Shown: positions 8,656 through 16,168 of the stretch, one piece after another
Numbering within the stretch: position 1 is the stretch's first letter
How the letters are laid out: each line of letters starts with the position of its first letter
Source: an uncultured Bacteroidales bacterium
GTDB lineage: Bacteria > Bacteroidota > Bacteroidia > Bacteroidales > Bacteroidaceae
Direction: 5' to 3'
DNA length: 64,000 nt
Assembly: GCA_902785075.1 (NCBI GenBank)
Contig: CACZXN010000001.1
Span: forward strand, 1-64,000
Made by a program: the position numbers and the translations under genes
Notes under the pieces: model-generated
Told to the model about the DNA's origin: nothing
Databases searched by the model: none
What the model saw: the letters and a program-made list of their open reading frames with translations, nothing else

Positions 8656-8791
8656 AGAGACCCAAAAACACAACCACAAGTATCTGTAGAGCTATTTTTA
8701 GGGCATTTTATGTTAGGTCTTTGCAAATTCCATATTATTCTGCATTTTTCATCGAATCTTACGAGGGATTTGACACACGGTATGTCGAAAC

Positions 8792-8879
8792 GGTCCCACA
8801 CTGGGACTGAAGTGGTCCCATATTGGGAATCATATGTTCCCATACTGGGAATAAAGCGGTCCCATACTGGGACTAAGAA
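8792..8879. repeat. Tandem 22-bp palindrome array, GTCCCA/TGGGAC type
   Basis: Four units start at 8792, 8814, 8836 and 8858, exactly 22 bp apart. Units 1 and 4 have six-base arms GTCCCA and TGGGAC around three bases. Unit 3 has TTCCCA with TGGGAA, so both arms changed together and pairing is kept. Unit 2 changed only one arm. Confidence 0.9.
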
Positions 8880-8930: not shown

Positions 8931-9049
8931 AACTGTCAACCGTAAACTGTAAACTAAGTTGTGGGAAACAAAAAAGCTTAGTGAAAATGGCACAAACAGA
9001 CTTTCTGTGGCAAAAAGACAGCTAAAAGCACATTTTCTTTGACTTTTAT

Positions 9050-9080
9050 TTTGTGGAATGCATAAAATAGTGTAATTTTG
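9050..9080 (+). promoter_or_regulatory. Promoter of the leu operon
   Basis: TTTG at 9050-9053, 19 bases, then TAATTTTG at 9073-9080: a full match to the Bacteroidetes consensus. The expected start site is near 9087, about 16 bases before the leader peptide ATG and about 260 bases before leuA. Confidence 0.9.
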
Positions 9081-9102
9081 CACCGTATTTAAGAACATAG
9101 GT

Positions 9103-9186
9103 ATGAAATCTATTAGCATCATCGGCATTATTCTACCACTACGACTTAGTAAGCTCGGAGTGAGAGAGGCTGTGTTTAATAAATAA
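9103..9186 (+). CDS. Leader peptide of the leu operon attenuator
   Basis: A 27-codon frame with ATG at 9103 and TAA at 9184-9186. It encodes MKSISIIGIILPLRLSKL followed by GVREAVFNK. Eleven residues are Ile, Leu or Val, with five Ile and three Leu packed between codons 4 and 15. Leu codons include CTA twice, CTT and CTC. It begins just after the promoter start site and overlaps the 5' arm of the antiterminator helix (9153-9171). This is the arrangement of a regulatory leader peptide whose translation senses charged branched-chain tRNAs. It is probably not a functional protein in itself. Confidence 0.85.
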   Translation: MKSISIIGIILPLRLSKLGVREAVFNK

Positions 9187-9241
9187 CATATGATGTTTCA
9201 TAGATAAAAAACGAATAGAATAAGCCTTTCTTGCTCCGAGC
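9153..9241 (+). promoter_or_regulatory. Antiterminator helix of the leu attenuator
   Basis: Bases 9153-9171 (GCTCGGAGTGAGAGAGGCT) can pair with 9223-9241 (AGCCTTTCTTGCTCCGAGC) over 19 consecutive positions, three of them G-U. The 5' arm lies inside the leader peptide frame, just after the Ile/Leu-rich codons. The 3' arm is the same segment that forms the left side of the terminator. A ribosome stalled at the Ile/Leu codons would leave the 5' arm free. A ribosome reaching the stop codon would cover it. Confidence 0.85.
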
Positions 9242-9255
9242 GAGAGGGGCTTTTT
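9223..9255 (+). terminator. Attenuator terminator of the leu operon
   Basis: Bases 9223-9235 pair with 9239-9251 in a 13-bp stem with G-U pairs and a three-base loop, followed by a T-run (9251-9255). It cannot form together with the antiterminator. Premature stopping here would occur about 95 bases before the leuA ATG. Confidence 0.88.
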
Positions 9256-9261
9256 GTAATA

Positions 9262-9295
9262 GACCCTTGCCCCTCCCTTTAGGGCGGGGAGTAGG
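9262..9295. repeat. Solo end of the DUF559-element family in the leu leader
   Basis: Starts GACCCTTGCCCCTCCCTTTA and ends GGGCGGGGAGTAGG, closely resembling the left end of the element at 13036-13070. It sits between the attenuator terminator and leuA and would fold as a hairpin in the mRNA. Confidence 0.65.
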
Positions 9296-9350
9296 ATGAA
9301 GGTGGAATATATAATAGAAAATAGTAAATTGTTAAATGGTAAATATAAAG

Positions 9351-10850
9351 ATGGATCGTTTATTGATTTTTGACACAACATTACGTGATGGGGAGCAGGT
9401 TCCAGGATGCCAGCTCAACACGGTAGAGAAGATTCAGGTTGCCAAGCAACTGGAGATGTTAGGCGTCGATGTCATCGAGGCAGGATTCCCTATTTCAAGC
9501 CCTGGTGACTACAACTCGGTAATAGAAATCTCGAAGGCTGTGACTTGGCCTACCATTTGTGCACTGACTCGTGCTGTCGAGAAGGACATCGATGTAGCAG
9601 TGGAGGCTTTGCAGTATGCAAAGCATAAGCGTATTCATACAGGTATCGGCACAAGCGACTCGCACATCAAGTATAAGTTCAACAGCAACCGCGAGGAAAT
9701 CATCGAGCGTGCTGTAGCTGCCGTGAAGTATGCTCGCAGATTTGTTGACGATGTGGAATTCTATGCTGAGGATGCAGGACGTACAGACAACGAATACCTG
9801 GCACGTGTCATCGAGGCTGTTTGCAAGGCAGGTGCAACCGTTTGTAACATCCCCGACACGACTGGTTTCCGTATTCCAAACGAATATCATGAAAAAATTA
9901 AGTATCTCTATGAGCATGTCGATGCATTCGCCGCAGGCAAGTCAATTCTGTCAACCCACTGCCATAATGACCTCGGTATGGCTACAGCCAACACCGTAGC
10001 TGGTGTGTTGGCTGGAGCACGTCAGGTGGAGGTGACCATCAATGGTATCGGAGAGCGTGCAGGTAACACGTCGCTTGAAGAGGTTGCCATGATTTTCAAG
10101 ACCCATCCCGACCTCGGTATTGAGACGAATATCAACACCACCAAGATCTATCCTACCAGCCGTATGGTGTCGAGCCTCATGAACATGCCGGTTCAACCCA
10201 ACAAGGCCATCGTGGGACGCAATGCGTTTGCTCACTCAAGCGGTATTCATCAAGATGGAGTGCTGAAAAACGCATCCACCTACGAGATTATGGACCCCAA
10301 GGATGTGGGTATCGACGAAGCTTCAATCGTACTGACAGCACGTTCGGGACGTGCAGCCCTGAAACATCGCCTACACATCAATGGCGTTGATGTTGACGAT
10401 GAGAAACTCGACAAGGTATATCAATCATTCCTCGAACTTGCCGACAAGAAAAAAGAGGTGACTGATGACGACATCCTCGTTCTGGCTGGTGCAGAGCGCA
10501 CAGAGGCTCACAACATCAAGCTCGATTATCTGCAAGTAACGACAGGTAAGGGTGTACGTAGTGTAGCATCAATCGGATTGCAAATTGCAAACGAGCATTT
10601 CGAAGCAGCAGCTACCGGAAACGGTCCTGTCGATGCTGCCATCAAGGGATTGAAACGAATCATCAAGCGCGACATGACCCTCAAGGAATTCACCATTCAG
10701 GCGATCTCGAAAGGCTCAGACGACCTTGGCAAGGTACACATGCAGGTGGAGTACAACAACCACATCTATTATGGTTTCGGAGCAAACACCGACATCGTGA
10801 CTGCCTCTGTCGAAGCATATATTGACTGTATCAATAAGTTTAAAGATTAA
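9351..10850 (+). CDS. leuA: 2-isopropylmalate synthase
   Basis: Condenses 2-oxoisovalerate with acetyl-CoA, the first committed step of leucine synthesis; cytosolic and normally inhibited by leucine. The protein is about 499 residues. It has the HMGL-type barrel with [13 protein letters not shown] at the start, the metal-site text [14 protein letters not shown], and the NGIGERAGN loop. A C-terminal LeuA regulatory domain is present (about from residue 385, with [15 protein letters not shown]). A start at 9336 would add MVNIK; the Met at 9351 fits the family better. First structural gene behind the attenuator. Confidence 0.95.
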
Positions 10851-10851
10851 A

Positions 10852-10950
10852 GACCCCCTGGAAATACAAGAATATGAATAATCAACAGCAAGTAACAACT
10901 AATGGAGTATCTACTCCTCTCCCTTGTAGGGAGGGGCAAGGAGGTGGGTC
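10852..10950 (+). repeat. Internally deleted copy of the DUF559 element
   Basis: Begins GACCCCCT right after the leuA stop and ends GGTGGGTC inside leuC. Its last 84 bases (10867-10950) align without gaps to 13459-13542, the right end of the DUF559 element, with 71 identities. The match includes the final codons and stop of the DUF559 gene (CAAGAATATGAATAA). The endonuclease gene itself is missing. The copy supplies the leuC start codon. Confidence 0.8.
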
Positions 10951-12337
10951 TGCCTGCCTCTTCGACAAAATCTGGAACGCTCACGTAGTGCAGCAGGTGG
11001 AAGACGGACCAACTCAGTTGTATATCGACCGTCTGTACGCTCATGAAGTGACCAGCCCTCAGGCATTCGACACACTAAGAGACAAAGGAATCAAGGTGTT
11101 CCGTCCTGACCACGTGATAGCAATGCCTGACCATAATACACCAAGTGATCAGCAAGAACGCATAGACGACCCAATAGGTCGCAAGCAGGTGGAGACACTC
11201 AAAGCTAATTGCGAAGAGTTCGGTATCAAGCACTTCACGATGGGCACCAAAGACAATGGTATCATCCATGTCGTAGGTCCTGAGAAGGCACTCTCTTTAC
11301 CTGGTATGACCATCGTTTGCGGAGACTCACACACATCGACACATGGTGCTGTAGGTGCTATCGCAATGGGTATCGGCACATCAGAGGTGGCTCAAGTGCT
11401 TGCTTCACAATGTATCCTTCAGTCAAAGCCCAAAACAATGCGTATCAACATAGAGGGTGAGTTGCAGCCAAATGTTACAGCAAAAGATGTTGCTCTCTAT
11501 ATCATGGCTCAGATGACTACAAGCGGAGCTACGGGTTATGCAGTTGAATATGCAGGAAGCACGATTCGCAACATGTCGATGGAAGGCCGCCTGACATTGA
11601 GCAACCTCAGCATTGAGATGGGAAGCCGTGCAGGATTGATAGCTCCCGATGAAACGACTTTTGCGTACCTCAAAGGACGTGAATACGCACCCAAGGGTGC
11701 AGAATGGGATAAGGCGGTTGAAGAATGGCGCAAGTTGAAGAGCGACGACGATGCTGTATTTGATAAAGAGGTGACATATCGTGCAGAAGATATTGCCCCT
11801 CGAATCACATACGGAACCAATCCAGGTGCTGGTATTGCTGTCGATGAGTGCATTCCAACTATCGAACAGATTGAAGAAGCCGATCGCGGTCAGTTCTTGA
11901 GCATGCTCGACTACATGCAGTTCCAACCAGGACAAAAGCTTGAAGGAACACCTGTTGACTATGTATTCCTCGGCGCTTGTACCAATGGTCGTATCGAAGA
12001 CTTCCGTGCTTTCGCCTCTGTCGTAAAAGGCAAAAAGAAAGCAGAAAACGTAGTTGCCTGGCTTGTTCCGGGTTCATGGTTGGTTCGCCAGCAAATTATC
12101 GACGAAGGAATTGACAAGGTGCTTGCTGACGCAGGCTTTGAACTCCGTCTGCCTTCATGTTCAGCATGTCTGGCAATGAATCCAGACAAAGTACCTGCTG
12201 GTAAACTGGCTATTTCGACTTCAAACCGTAACTTCGTAGGACGCCAGGGACCTGGTGCACGCACCATCCTCGCATCACCACTTACCGTTGCGGCAAGTGC
12301 CATTACAGGAGTAGTAACCGACCCGAGGAAGATTTAA
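10874..12337 (+). CDS. leuC: 3-isopropylmalate dehydratase large subunit
   Basis: Iron-sulfur subunit that, with LeuD, isomerises 2-isopropylmalate to 3-isopropylmalate. The 487 residues show the aconitase-family text [10 protein letters not shown], the DSHTSTHGA motif and [4Fe-4S] cysteines in [14 protein letters not shown] and [12 protein letters not shown]. The first 26 residues ([20 protein letters not shown] and on) are not family sequence. They are encoded by the repeat at 10852-10950 and are 21/26 identical to the start of the LeuA paralogue further down. No other in-frame start precedes the conserved FDKIW, so this added tail is probably translated. Confidence 0.93.
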
Positions 12338-12427: not shown

Positions 12428-13048
12428 ATGGCAAAAGAAAAATTTAACATCATACAATCAACCTGTATACCCATTCAGATTGATAATTGCAACACAGACT
12501 TGATTATTCCAGCAAGATACCTTGCCAGTACCACTCGAGACCCAAAGTTTTTTGGAGATGCCTTCATGCACGACCTACGCTATGATGCAGATGGCAATCC
12601 CGTAGCTGACTTTGTCATGAACCAACCTGCTTACAGTGAAGCACCTCATAAGGGAGTTCATGAGATTATCGTAGGAGGTCAGAACTGGGGGTCAGGATCG
12701 AGTCGTGAACATGCCGCTTGGGCCATTGCCGGCTATGGAGTGCGTGTGGTTATCTCAAGCAGCTTTGCTGATATCCACCGTAACAACCTACTCAACTGCT
12801 TTGTTCTGCCAGTAATCGTCACACCAGAGTTTCAACAGGAGCTGTTTGCAAGCATCGCTGCCGACCCTCAGACGCAAGTCAAGGTAGATGTACCCAACCA
12901 AACAGTCACAAACCTTGCTACAGGTCATTCAGAGCATTTCGACATCAACTCATACAAGAAGTATTGTCTCATGAACGCTTATGACGACATCGACTTCTTG
13001 CTAAGCAATAAAGATAAGATAGAGAAATATGAGGAGACCCACCCCTAA
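12428..13048 (+). CDS. leuD: 3-isopropylmalate dehydratase small subunit
   Basis: Swivel-domain partner of LeuC. The 206 residues show the usual NCNTDLIIPARYL start region and the substrate loop GSGSSREHAAWAIAGYG near residues 88-104. The final residues ETHP and the stop codon at 13046-13048 lie inside the left terminal repeat of the DUF559 element (13036-13070), so the native C-terminus seems to have been replaced. The effect on activity is likely small, because the tail lies beyond the conserved fold. Confidence 0.93.
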   Translation: MAKEKFNIIQSTCIPIQIDNCNTDLIIPARYLASTTRDPKFFGDAFMHDLRYDADGNPVADFVMNQPAYSEAPHKGVHEIIVGGQNWGSGSSREHAAWAIAGYGVRVVISSSFADIHRNNLLNCFVLPVIVTPEFQQELFASIAADPQTQVKVDVPNQTVTNLATGHSEHFDINSYKKYCLMNAYDDIDFLLSNKDKIEKYEETHP

Positions 13049-13542
13049 GCCCCTCCCTGTAAGTGAGGGGAATAGTCACTAATTAGCGTTAAAACAATAT
13101 GAGTTTCAAGACTGCGGCACCAGATAGACATGGGTTGTTGAGGGAGTTCGCTCGTAAGAATCGGAAAAATGCAACACTTGCCGAACAGGTACTTTGGGAA
13201 GAACTCAGAGAGAAAGAATTAGGAGTCCGTTTCTTGAGACAACATATCATTGGTGATTATATCGCGGATTTCATAGCGTTGGAAGTGGGGTTAATCATCG
13301 AGGTAGATGGTTCATATCATTCTGAACCTCAACAGGAAGAAGATGACGAACGAAGAACTAGAAAATTAAAAACTATGGGGTTTGATGTAATACGTTTCAC
13401 CAACGAAGATGTTCTATATAACACAAACAAGGTGATAGATGATATCATTCAAAAACTGCAAGAATATGAATAATCAGCAGCAAACAACATCTAACGGAGT
13501 ATATACCCCCCACCCTTGCAGGGAGGGGTATGGAGGAGGGTC
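13036..13542 (+). mobile_element. DUF559 element with terminal inverted repeats
   Basis: A 507-bp unit. Its left end (13036-13070) and the reverse complement of its right end (13508-13542) are both 35 bases, share GACCC at the edge and the block CCCCTCCCTG inside, and mismatch at about 10 positions. The only gene between the ends is the DUF559 endonuclease. The left end carries the leuD stop, and the right end carries the start and first 26 codons of the next gene. No clear target-site duplication was seen. A shortened relative lies at 10852-10950 and one-ended fragments at 8885, 9262 and 12338. Mobility is inferred, not shown. Confidence 0.65.
13099..13473 (+). CDS. DUF559 endonuclease-domain protein
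   Basis: A 124-residue protein of the DUF559 family, related in fold to very-short-patch repair and type II restriction nucleases. The core RQHIIGDYIADFIALEVGLI then IEVDG gives a nuclease-like arrangement, with D57, E68 and D70 as candidate metal ligands. The N-terminus is basic and helical, as usual. It is not part of leucine synthesis. It sits inside a unit with terminal inverted repeats and its stop codon overlaps the next gene's start by 8 bp (13466-13473). Its role is unknown; it may act on the repeats around it or in DNA repair. Confidence 0.85.
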   Translation: MSFKTAAPDRHGLLREFARKNRKNATLAEQVLWEELREKELGVRFLRQHIIGDYIADFIALEVGLIIEVDGSYHSEPQQEEDDERRTRKLKTMGFDVIRFTNEDVLYNTNKVIDDIIQKLQEYE

Positions 13543-15055
13543 CACTATCGAAATAATGGACACAACACTCCGTGACGGTGAACAAACCAACGGAGTATCG
13601 TTTGTACCTCATGAGAAGCTCATCGTAGCTCGCATGTTGCTGCAAGACCTCAACGTAGATCGTATTGAGGTCGCATCAGCACGTGTGTCCGACGGAGAGA
13701 AAGAAGCTGTACGCAGCATCTGCAAATGGGCACGTATGGCAGGAAAGCTTGACAGAGTGGAGGTGCTAGGATTTGTCGACGGAACGACATCTATTGATTG
13801 GATTGATGACTGCGGATGCCAGATTATCAACTTATTGTGCAAGGGCAGTGAGCGCCATTGTGTCTATCAACTCGGCAAAACACTCGAAGCACATTTAGCC
13901 GACATCCATCAATCCATCAACTATGCCCACCAGAAGGGAATTTCAGTCAACATCTACCTCGAGGATTGGAGCAACGGCATGAAAGATAATGCTGATTATG
14001 TATTCCGATTTGTTGATGCCCTTAAGGATACAGGAGTGAAACGTTTTATGCTTCCTGACACACTTGGCGTCCTCAACCCGATGCAGACGACCGAATATAT
14101 ACGTCAAATGGTAGAACGTTTCCCTCAACTACACTTCGACTTCCACGCACATAATGACTACGACCTTGCTACAGCAAACGTAATGGCAGCTGTGGTTGAA
14201 GGATGTAAGGGTGTGCACACATCTGTCAACGGATTGGGAGAGCGAGCAGGTAATGCTCCGCTCAGCAGCGTACAGGCAATCCTGAAAGATCAATTGGGCG
14301 TGAAGACCAATATCAACGAGGTGAAACTCAACGAAGTCAGTCACCTTATCGAGAGTTACTCAGGTATCGCCATTCCGTCGAACAAACCCATTATCGGCGA
14401 GAATGTGTTTACACAAGTAGCTGGCGTACATGCTGATGGAGACAATAAGAATAATCTCTATTGCAACGACCTGCTTCCTGAGCGATTCGGGCGTAAGCGT
14501 GAGTATGCGTTAGGAAAAAACAGCGGAAAAGCCAACATTCTGAAAAACCTCGAAGAACTCGGATTGGAACTAACGCCTGAGCAAACACGTCGCGTCACAG
14601 ATCGCATCATTGAGTTGGGCGACAAGAAGCAGATTGTAACACAGGAAGACCTACCATATATCGTGAGCGATGTGCTCAAGCATAGCACTCCAGACGAGAA
14701 AGTCAAATTGCTGAGCTATATGGTCAGCACAGCTTACGGCCTCAAACCAATGGCAAGCGTGAAACTTGAAGTCAATGGTGAGGTTTATGAGGAGTCGGCT
14801 ATGGGTGACGGTATGTACGATGCGTTCGTTCATTGTGTACGCCACATCTATCGCGACCGTCTCCACCGTACGTTCCCATGGCTCACCAACTATGTGGTTA
14901 CCATTCCACCTGGAGGTCGAACAGATGCCCTCGTTCAAACATCCATATCATGGACGTATGAGGACAAGTCCTATCGCACTCGTGGCCTTGATGCCGACCA
15001 GACAGAAGCTGCCATAAAAGCGACTATCAAGATGCTGAATTTGATAGAGCCATAA
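13466..15055 (+). CDS. LeuA-family synthase, possibly (R)-citramalate synthase
   Basis: A 529-residue second member of the 2-isopropylmalate/homocitrate/citramalate synthase family. It has [13 protein letters not shown], the FHAHNDYDLATAN metal site, NGLGERAGN, and a C-terminal regulatory domain (ending near KATIKML). Its sequence differs clearly from LeuA in this operon. Location among leu genes, shared LeuBCD chemistry, and Ile codons in the operon leader make citramalate synthase (pyruvate plus acetyl-CoA, for isoleucine) a reasonable guess, but it is not proven. Residues 1-26 are encoded by the DUF559 element. The alternative Met of the DTTLRDGEQ motif would cut off the first strand of the barrel. 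Confidence 0.85.
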   Translation: MNNQQQTTSNGVYTPHPCREGYGGGSTIEIMDTTLRDGEQTNGVSFVPHEKLIVARMLLQDLNVDRIEVASARVSDGEKEAVRSICKWARMAGKLDRVEVLGFVDGTTSIDWIDDCGCQIINLLCKGSERHCVYQLGKTLEAHLADIHQSINYAHQKGISVNIYLEDWSNGMKDNADYVFRFVDALKDTGVKRFMLPDTLGVLNPMQTTEYIRQMVERFPQLHFDFHAHNDYDLATANVMAAVVEGCKGVHTSVNGLGERAGNAPLSSVQAILKDQLGVKTNINEVKLNEVSHLIESYSGIAIPSNKPIIGENVFTQVAGVHADGDNKNNLYCNDLLPERFGRKREYALGKNSGKANILKNLEELGLELTPEQTRRVTDRIIELGDKKQIVTQEDLPYIVSDVLKHSTPDEKVKLLSYMVSTAYGLKPMASVKLEVNGEVYEESAMGDGMYDAFVHCVRHIYRDRLHRTFPWLTNYVVTIPPGGRTDALVQTSISWTYEDKSYRTRGLDADQTEAAIKATIKMLNLIEP

Positions 15056-15106: not shown

Positions 15107-16168
15107 ATGAAACTTAAGATTGCTGTTCTTGCGGGCGATGGAATCGGCCCAGAGATTATGGAACAAGGCGTGAAGGTGATGAGCGCCGTTTGTGAGAAAT
15201 TCGGACATGAAGTTAGTTATAAGGAAGCATTGTGTGGAGCACATGCCATCGATGAGGTTGGAGATCCATTCCCAGAAGAGACCTTCCAAACATGTATGGA
15301 GGCTGATGCAGTTCTCTTTGCCTCTGTAGGTGACCCAAAGTTCGATAACAACCCCAACGCAAAGGTACGTCCAGAACAGGGTTTGCTGGCAATGCGTAAG
15401 AAACTCGGGCTATTTGCCAACATTCGTCCAGTAGAGACCTTCGAATGTCTTGTTCATAAATCACCACTCAAAGACGAACTTGTACGTGGTGCGGACTTCA
15501 TCTGCATCCGTGAGTTGACCGGTGGAATGTACTTTGGAGAAAAGAAAGAAGGAACAGACGTTGCATACGACACCAACTACTACACTCGCAAGGAAGTTGA
15601 GCGTATCCTTCGTGTTGCCTATCAGTATGCCATGCAGCGCCGCAAGCACCTCACAGTGGTTGATAAAGCCAACGTACTGGCATCAAGCCGTTTATGGCGT
15701 GCTGTTGCGCAAGAGATAGCACCTCAGTATCCAGAAGTCACTACCGACTACATGTATGTAGATAATGCGGCTATGCGTATGATTCAAGAACCCAAGTTCT
15801 TCGATGTGATGGTTACAGAGAACACCTTTGGCGATATTCTCACCGATGAAGGCTCTTGTATCACTGGTTCGATGGGACTCCTGCCTTCTGCTAGTACAGG
15901 TGAACACACACCAGTTTTTGAACCTATTCATGGTTCATGGCCTCAGGCAAAAGGCCTCAACATCGCAAACCCATTAGCACAGATCCTCTCTGTAGCTATG
16001 CTCTTTGAGTATTTCAACCTCAAAGAAGAAGGTGCACTCATCCGCAAGGCTGTGAATGCAAGCTTAGACGCCAACGTGCGTACGCCAGAGATTCAGGTCG
16101 AAGGAGGCGCTAAGTATGGCACAAAGGAAGTTGGTGAGTGGATTGTTGATTATATCAAGAAAGCGTAG
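15107..16168 (+). CDS. leuB: 3-isopropylmalate dehydrogenase
   Basis: NAD-dependent oxidative decarboxylase, third enzyme of leucine synthesis; cytosolic. The 353 residues show the GDGIGPEIM start, the substrate arginine region [34 protein letters not shown], and the NAD-site text [23 protein letters not shown]. Full family length. Last gene of the operon, 51 bp after the LeuA paralogue. No obvious hairpin terminator separates it from the convergent gene that ends at 16199. Confidence 0.96.

Follow-up and report, generated by a model that had tools for sequence, protein, structure and literature searches.

Organization of the leu locus

The window, a stretch of 64,000 nucleotides from an uncultured Bacteroidales bacterium, carries on its forward strand a leu operon in which the genes follow a short leader in the order leuA, leuC, leuD, a DUF559 gene, a cimA-like gene and leuB. 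The first gene, leuA (9351-10850), encodes a 2-isopropylmalate synthase that matches TIGR00973 over its cut-off; leuC (10874-12337), leuD (12428-13048) and leuB (15107-16168) were named by family search. The cimA-like gene (13439-15055, with a possible start at 13466) encodes a putative citramalate synthase, for which NF042433 is the best NCBIfam match (629 bits, E 4e-189, under the curated cut-off of 950).

The leader opens with a promoter recognized by sequence, whose -33 element TTTG (9050-9053) and -7 element TAATTTTG (9073-9080) fit the -33 TTTG / -7 TAnnTTTG consensus reported for the Bacteroidetes primary sigma factor (PMC7366714). It is followed by a leader peptide frame, MKSISIIGIILPLRLSKLGVREAVFNK, of 27 codons plus TAA (9103-9186), in which five Ile, four Leu and two Val account for 11 of the 27 codons; the control codons are Ile codons 4, 6, 7, 9 and 10 and Leu codons 11, 13 and 15. 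The antiterminator, placed by folding and covariation, is a helix of 19 continuous pairs, G-U included, between a 5' arm inside the frame (segment 2, 9153-9171) and a 3' arm (segment 3, 9223-9241) that also serves as the 5' arm and loop of an intrinsic terminator (segments 3:4, 9222-9255). The fold of 9153-9241 reaches -37.4 kcal/mol (z -8.35), and none of 200 shuffles was equally good. The terminator is a 14-bp hairpin (9222-9252) pairing 9222-9235 with 9239-9252 at -19.7 kcal/mol (1/200 shuffles equally good), with a U-run at 9251-9255. A further hairpin lies within the frame (1:2, 9137-9162, -6.6 kcal/mol); its 5' arm includes Leu codons 13 and 15, and its 3' arm overlaps the antiterminator arm. 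As 18 of 200 shuffles fold equally well, this hairpin is weak on the window sequence alone, and its assignment draws both on the fold and on the comparison of relatives described below.

An earlier note, made from the sequence alone, had described this promoter, a 27-codon frame with 11 Ile/Leu/Val residues, the 19-bp helix with its 5' arm inside the frame, and the sharing of 9223-9241 by antiterminator and terminator, all of which are found as described; its terminator hairpin with a U-run to 9255 is also present, with 14 bp from 9222 in place of the 13 given. The locus thus combines an intrinsic terminator ahead of the first gene, an antiterminator 2:3 and a terminator 3:4 that exclude one another, a short, putatively translated frame with runs of codons for the products of the operon, and a hairpin 1:2 over the control codons, the last discernible in relatives with adjusted segments.

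Several other features of the region were recorded. The DUF559 gene (13099-13473), whose family match falls under its own cut-off, sits between leuD and the cimA-like gene and is flanked by two palindromes; in four related loci (L009, L010, L012 and L022) a DUF559 relative stands between leuA and leuC instead, as if the gene had moved within the operon. An 89-nt repeat, 83% identical, occurs at 10862-10950 and 13454-13542, where it provides LeuC and the CimA-like protein with a start codon and with extra N-terminal residues (MNNQQQ...NGV.TP.PCREG.GGGS). A similar palindromic core is present between the terminator and leuA (9270-9289) and at 13050-13069, and the palindrome pattern, with up to 3 mismatches allowed, gives 8 matches at 4 sites vs 0.03 expected. 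Four head-to-tail copies of a 22-nt unit with TCCCA...TGGGA occupy 8787-8874. Two matches to the Acido-Lenti-1 RNA over its gathering score, at 350-395 on the reverse strand and 483-528 on the forward strand, both fall outside the taxa of the family's name.

Conservation of the leader upstream of leuA

To survey relatives, 61 genomes were searched for LeuA; 45 gave a match, and the 30 best loci were passed to a detector that requires a frame rich in Ile, Leu and Val directly ahead of a terminator. The detector found such a leader upstream of leuA at 24 of the 30 loci; the corresponding rates were 1/30 on the reverse strand, 0-1/30 in six rounds of dinucleotide shuffles and 1/30 upstream of hisG. 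Inspection by eye added two loci, L026 and the near relative L013, in which the leader is present with a broken U-run, and showed no leader at L017, L024, L029 and L037. Taken singly, the antiterminator pairing stands out in only 15 of the 24 leuA leaders, where at most 3 of 300 shuffles match it. A second sample, drawn from the best 80 of 469 named public matches and partly repeating the genomes of the first, had 79 loci with enough upstream sequence; 41 gave detector hits, among them records of Segatella baroniae B14, Prevotella sp. P6B1 and MA2016 and Bacteroides sp. Marseille-P3684, and 38 gave no leader.

A covariance model, R1, built from 11 leaders of other genera, has hits at E <=0.01 in 112 of 344 genomes of the order. 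Fifty of its sites, some of them from the first set, were inspected: 27 precede leuA, 21 ilvD, one trpB and one an unidentified gene, with ilvD read from its N-terminal motif and confirmed by family search for L068 only. The window's own leader was missed by R1 in the genome scans and was found in a smaller search (28.2 bits, E 0.002). Outside the order, 19 leuA loci (L153-L171) gave no clear leader and one possible leader (L165).

Merging identical leader peptides, some of which came from sites carried under two locus numbers, left 81 distinct leaders: 44 of leuA, 36 of ilvD and one other. L078, L104 and L125 were dropped from these for the promoter motif, the folding (78 leaders each) and the helix test. 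In 65 of the 78 the motif TAnnTTTG occurs no more than 60 nt upstream of the leader ATG, vs 3.1 expected from mononucleotide shuffles.

Covariation of the paired segments

Pairing was assessed without an alignment, by comparing the fit of each leader's own segments with that of segments exchanged between species over 5000 permutations, after removal of identical terminator arms (n=72). Cognate pairing beats swapped pairing for both the antiterminator (z -11.8) and the terminator (z -20.8), with 0/5000 permutations as good in either case. The matched changes can be read directly: CCTTTCTC faces GAGAAAGG in many leaders, CCATTCTC faces GAGAATGG in L072 and GAGGATGG in L077, and CAGCCCTCC faces GGAGGGCTG in L111. 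A covariance count on 11 rows is weak, 26 of 500 shuffles reaching its covariation score.

For hairpin 1:2 the segments chosen first gave z -3.5 overall (1/5000), with 12/5000 for leuA and a null result for ilvD alone (408/5000). With segments moved, after this first choice, to the arm position judged by eye, the values were z -4.3 for leuA (0/5000, n=37) and z -3.5 for ilvD (4/5000, n=33); a second window pair gave 32/5000 and 3/5000. Shifted controls ranged from z -0.6 to +1.8. The pairing test does not fully remove shared ancestry, and these null shifted controls speak against ancestry as the cause of the signal.

Because hairpin 1:2 covaries and overlaps the antiterminator arm, the leader has the layout of the classical 1:2/2:3/3:4 ladder and not of a pair of helices. 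The earlier note had proposed two exclusive helices without the enteric ladder, and such a two-helix design is not supported in view of the conserved and covarying in-frame hairpin at 9137-9162. The comparison of regions upstream of leuA that it had put forward as a check, on the other hand, reveals a conserved Leu/Ile-rich frame and covariation in both of its helices, and its central proposal of a ribosome-mediated attenuator with an Ile/Leu leader is supported on both counts.

Folding of the leader and a model of the switch

The window leader can on paper take two states, since the fold of 9150-9260, with the codons before the arm hidden, is the antiterminator (-38.8 kcal/mol), and that of 9166-9260, with most of the arm hidden, is the terminator. 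The whole of 9102-9260 folds into the terminator together with the in-frame hairpin as part of a larger fold (-46.1, z -4.65).

Equilibrium folding of whole leaders failed as a test of switching for most relatives: the terminator was kept in most of them whatever the stall, and its probability fell to 0.2 or below at some Ile/Leu/Val codon in only 12/44 leuA and 6/34 ilvD leaders. The model consequently needs the order of events during transcription. We therefore folded transcripts cut after segment 3, a choice made only after the equilibrium result was known, with a ribosome mask reaching 15 nt from the P site in each direction; the best stall was chosen among the Ile/Leu/Val codons outside the first three and last five codons. 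In this model the antiterminator probability at the best stall is at least 0.8 in all 44 leuA and all 34 ilvD leaders. When the ribosome sits at the stop codon, this probability does not exceed 0.5 in 37/44 leuA and 26/34 ilvD leaders, and stays above 0.5 in the other 7 and 8, respectively. For the window leader the value holds at 1.0 as far as a stall on codon 16, drops to 0.8 on codon 17 and is 0.00 once the stop codon is reached. Among the ten codons leading to the modelled flip point, 531 of 778 are Ile, Leu or Val, as against 79 of 451 beyond it. In 46 of 78 leaders the longest Ile/Leu/Val run ends close to the flip, which lies at most one codon before or two codons after that end.

Hairpin 1:2 appears to matter in part of the leaders, because masking that also covers the 5' side of segment 2, and so prevents the hairpin, raises the antiterminator probability at the stop codon by at least 0.3 in 12/44 leuA and 12/34 ilvD leaders. 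Without a ribosome, the antiterminator is favoured (above 0.5) in 20/44 leuA cut transcripts, the window's included, and in 24/34 of ilvD, so the modelled switch is not cleanly off by default. When the frames were recoded synonymously, no more than 5 of 200 recoded versions reached the stability of the native one in 9 of 26 leaders; the figure for the window is 71 of 200.

Codon content and the genes of the operon

The leaders of leuA and ilvD differ in the amino acids they spell. Val averages 0.84 per leader before leuA vs 4.08 before ilvD (44 and 36 leaders), and Val-Val occurs in 2/44 vs 27/36 (Fisher 1.7e-11, with all 44 and 36 leaders kept, L104 and L125 included); as the detector takes Ile, Leu and Val together, it does not alone create this contrast. 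Of the 210 Leu codons that the leuA leaders contain, 72 are the rare CTA, vs 10 of 146 in the five leu-operon genes of the window; rare CTA (CUA) codons are likewise found in the enteric leuL. Ile averages 4.43 in leuA leaders, with ATT as 147 of 195 Ile codons, and the conserved stretch ATTATTCTA contains ATTATT.

The high Ile content is likely to reflect the presence of a citramalate synthase gene in the leu operon. In a set of 40 leuA stretches, of which 32 bear a leader, a cimA relative lies within 500 bases after leuD in 28 of the 32, and leuB is also in the stretch in 25 of these 28; cimA was seen in none of the eight leaderless stretches, several of whose contigs end early. Leaders of 27 of the 28 operons with cimA this close to leuD have at least 3 Ile, the exception being L026 with 1. 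Two leader-bearing stretches without cimA, those of genomes G011 (same peptide as L015) and G044 (L136), have 1 and 0 Ile; in G030, with cimA 4.7 kb after leuD, the leader has 0, and in G033 (L248), where the contig ends before cimA could be judged, it has 4. That Ile content tracks the presence of cimA is suggestive, the comparison being post hoc and covering few lineages.

Related leaders in other operons

The same layout is found before ilvD, with Val codons added: the detector gave hits at 22 of 44 ilvD loci, two of which were judged spurious (L104 and L125 are among the 22), with 1/44 on the reverse strand and 0-2/44 in shuffles. A His-rich frame and a terminator, for example MNNTLHHHHHHCNSSR, precede hisG at 18 of 30 loci (L194-L223), a count made without a shuffle control. 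The window's own genome has no leader upstream of ilvD (L118) or hisG (L210). At the trpB site found by R1 (L086), a frame with Trp-Trp-Trp, seen by eye, is followed by a terminator and then by trpB, named by family search. This trpB site is the known Bacteroid-trp element, a match to RF01692 at G021:C1:544879-545007.

Outside the order, 20 better-scoring R1 hits were read, and in ten the leader was judged to suit the gene behind it: four thrA, one asnA, two ilvB, two ilvE and one putative IlvN. A family scan of eight of these ten next genes named seven as read, including the thrA of L176 and L178; the putative IlvN had no family match at E 1e-60. Of the other ten hits, L175 is doubtful and nine are terminator-like without a fitting leader. 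At L176-L179, Thr/Ile leaders such as MTINNTTIITIITTGINFGGR stand with a terminator before thrA, and the enteric thr leader resembles them. At L174 (849-1853 and upstream), an Asn-rich short frame, MKSLKNNFFNYNSNNNIRAERLFY, and a terminator precede asnA; this leader is a possible asparagine attenuator.

Discussion

Comparison of sequences shows the parts of the leader, their conservation and covariation, and the match between its codons and the operon behind it. From these we infer translation of the frame, ribosome stalling, premature termination, transcription of the operon and use of the CimA pathway, and we propose that the element is, with high probability, a classical ribosome-mediated attenuator of leuA-leuC-leuD-cimA-leuB that reads the charging of both tRNA-Leu and tRNA-Ile. 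The reason for reading both would be the citramalate-synthase-like gene of the operon, through which it could feed leucine and isoleucine alike. When both charged tRNAs are plentiful, the ribosome would reach the stop codon, where it and hairpin 1:2 would keep segment 2 off segment 3; with these segments apart, the terminator at 9222-9255 would form and transcription would end. When either is short, the ribosome would stall in the Ile/Leu block of codons 4-15, hairpin 1:2 would be blocked, 9153-9171 would pair with 9223-9241 and RNA polymerase would enter leuA. The outcome would be set by the order in which these steps take place as the RNA is made, as the classical model holds.

The strong folds at the element would also suit a metabolite riboswitch or a protein-binding leader, in which the helices are real and the short frame incidental, and riboswitches commonly have alternative antiterminator and terminator helices. 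The alignments, however, present no conserved unpaired core by eye, but conserved helices and Ile/Leu codons; the codon content of the leader tracks the operon, and no Rfam family is over its gathering score at the element, which together make this reading improbable. The sole leader family listed there is Thr_leader (14.6 bits, gathering 55, E 3.6); Leu_leader and the other enteric leader families have no match over the gathering score, and only rRNA and tRNA genes exceed it at 20 related loci. A T-box, in which uncharged tRNA binds the leader directly, is brought to mind by the control of these same pathways by T-boxes in Firmicutes, but it needs no translated frame with runs of cognate codons, has no gathering-score match in the window or the 20 related loci, and is absent from the seven weak matches at 9000-9400; we regard its probability as negligible. 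Scarcely more credible is a plain terminator of the upstream unit next to a chance frame. Terminators between genes are common, but the low detector rates on the reverse strand, in shuffles and upstream of hisG, the promoter motif just before the frame in 65/78 leaders and the 19-bp helix (z -8.35) all argue against such a coincidence.

More weight is due to the reading in which attenuation is real and senses leucine only, the Ile codons being kept as ATTATT for an RNA fold or a spacer. The predominance of ATT (147/195 Ile codons), within the conserved ATTATTCTA, and the single Ile of L026 although cimA follows leuD, point this way. The post hoc comparison with operon content points the other way, with at least 3 Ile in 27/28 leaders where cimA is near leuD and 0-1 in G011, G044 and G030, and we consider sensing of leucine alone unlikely, though worth keeping in view beside the two-amino-acid attenuator that we favour.

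The attenuation mechanism itself is textbook, as in E. coli. Attenuators of E. coli and Salmonella combine a leader peptide that carries cognate codons with three hairpins that alternate, Leu codons of the rare CUA type and a terminator with a U-run, and the present leaders resemble the enteric leu, ilv, thr, his and trp attenuators in each of these. They differ from the enteric leu leader in that Ile and Leu are both found in the leu leader. They also differ from the enteric systems in their host phylum, whose mRNAs are described as lacking classical Shine-Dalgarno sequences (PMC7366714).

The earlier note knew of no described counterpart in Bacteroidetes, and this has to be revised. Bacteroid-trp RNA (RF01692), from the same phylum, is listed as cis-regulatory (Weinberg et al. 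2010, PMC2864571) and is a sibling whose site at L086 shows a like order of frame and terminator; it is a separate family, with Trp codons and a trp gene, that matched 11 of 61 relatives and had no match in the window or the window's genome (G000). In Flavobacterium psychrophilum strong clues are reported for leader-peptide attenuation upstream of amino-acid operons, and elements upstream of hisG and pheA are listed without Rfam hits (PMC9723704). That case shares the phylum and the kind of operon with ours; it concerns a flavobacterium, not a member of the Bacteroidales, and the portion of the account drawn on here does not name leu and ilv.

Elsewhere, the ilvD gene of Staphylococcus aureus has a Leu-rich attenuator peptide with genetic support, joined with CodY (PMC5794164); compared by description only, it likewise has a branched-chain leader peptide and a terminator/antiterminator pair, but belongs to the Firmicutes and works with CodY. 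The actinobacterial LEU element also places a frame with Leu codons upstream of leuA, but is described as a pseudoknot, the base of which pairs with the leuA Shine-Dalgarno box, and, in the part of that source considered, without a terminator ladder of this kind (PMC1262725). As of 2010, leader-peptide systems were said to be known only from Proteobacteria and Actinobacteria before the Firmicutes case of that paper (PMC2965389). For Bacteroides thetaiotaomicron, where knowledge of post-transcriptional control is called sparse, leaders with short frames reminiscent of attenuation are mentioned, and the portion of the text considered names no leu element (PMC7366714). Among the matches listed in the open-access literature, titles and abstract openings named no leu, ilv or his attenuator of Bacteroidales; earlier predictions may exist, for example in the comparative attenuation works of Vitreschak 2004 and Lopatovskaya 2010. 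On present evidence this type of attenuator seems to be common among gut Bacteroidales and to have received little description.

Of wider significance are the sister leaders found beyond leu. We think it somewhat probable that leader-peptide attenuation is a main control of amino-acid synthesis across the class, Bacteroidales included, with leaders of one layout each spelling the products of its operon: Leu and Ile for leu-cimA, Ile, Leu and Val for ilvD, ilvB and ilvE, His for hisG, Trp for the known trp case, Thr and Ile for thrA, and Asn for asnA, the leu leader acting as a sensor of two amino acids. If this is true, it would add elements that no Rfam family matches here and would allow genome-wide predictions of the amino acid sensed by each operon. 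The leader with Leu and Ile would itself make it possible to test whether the leu operon contributes to isoleucine synthesis by way of citramalate, and the leaders would explain how gut and rumen Bacteroidales could adjust their leu, ilv and his operons to diet.
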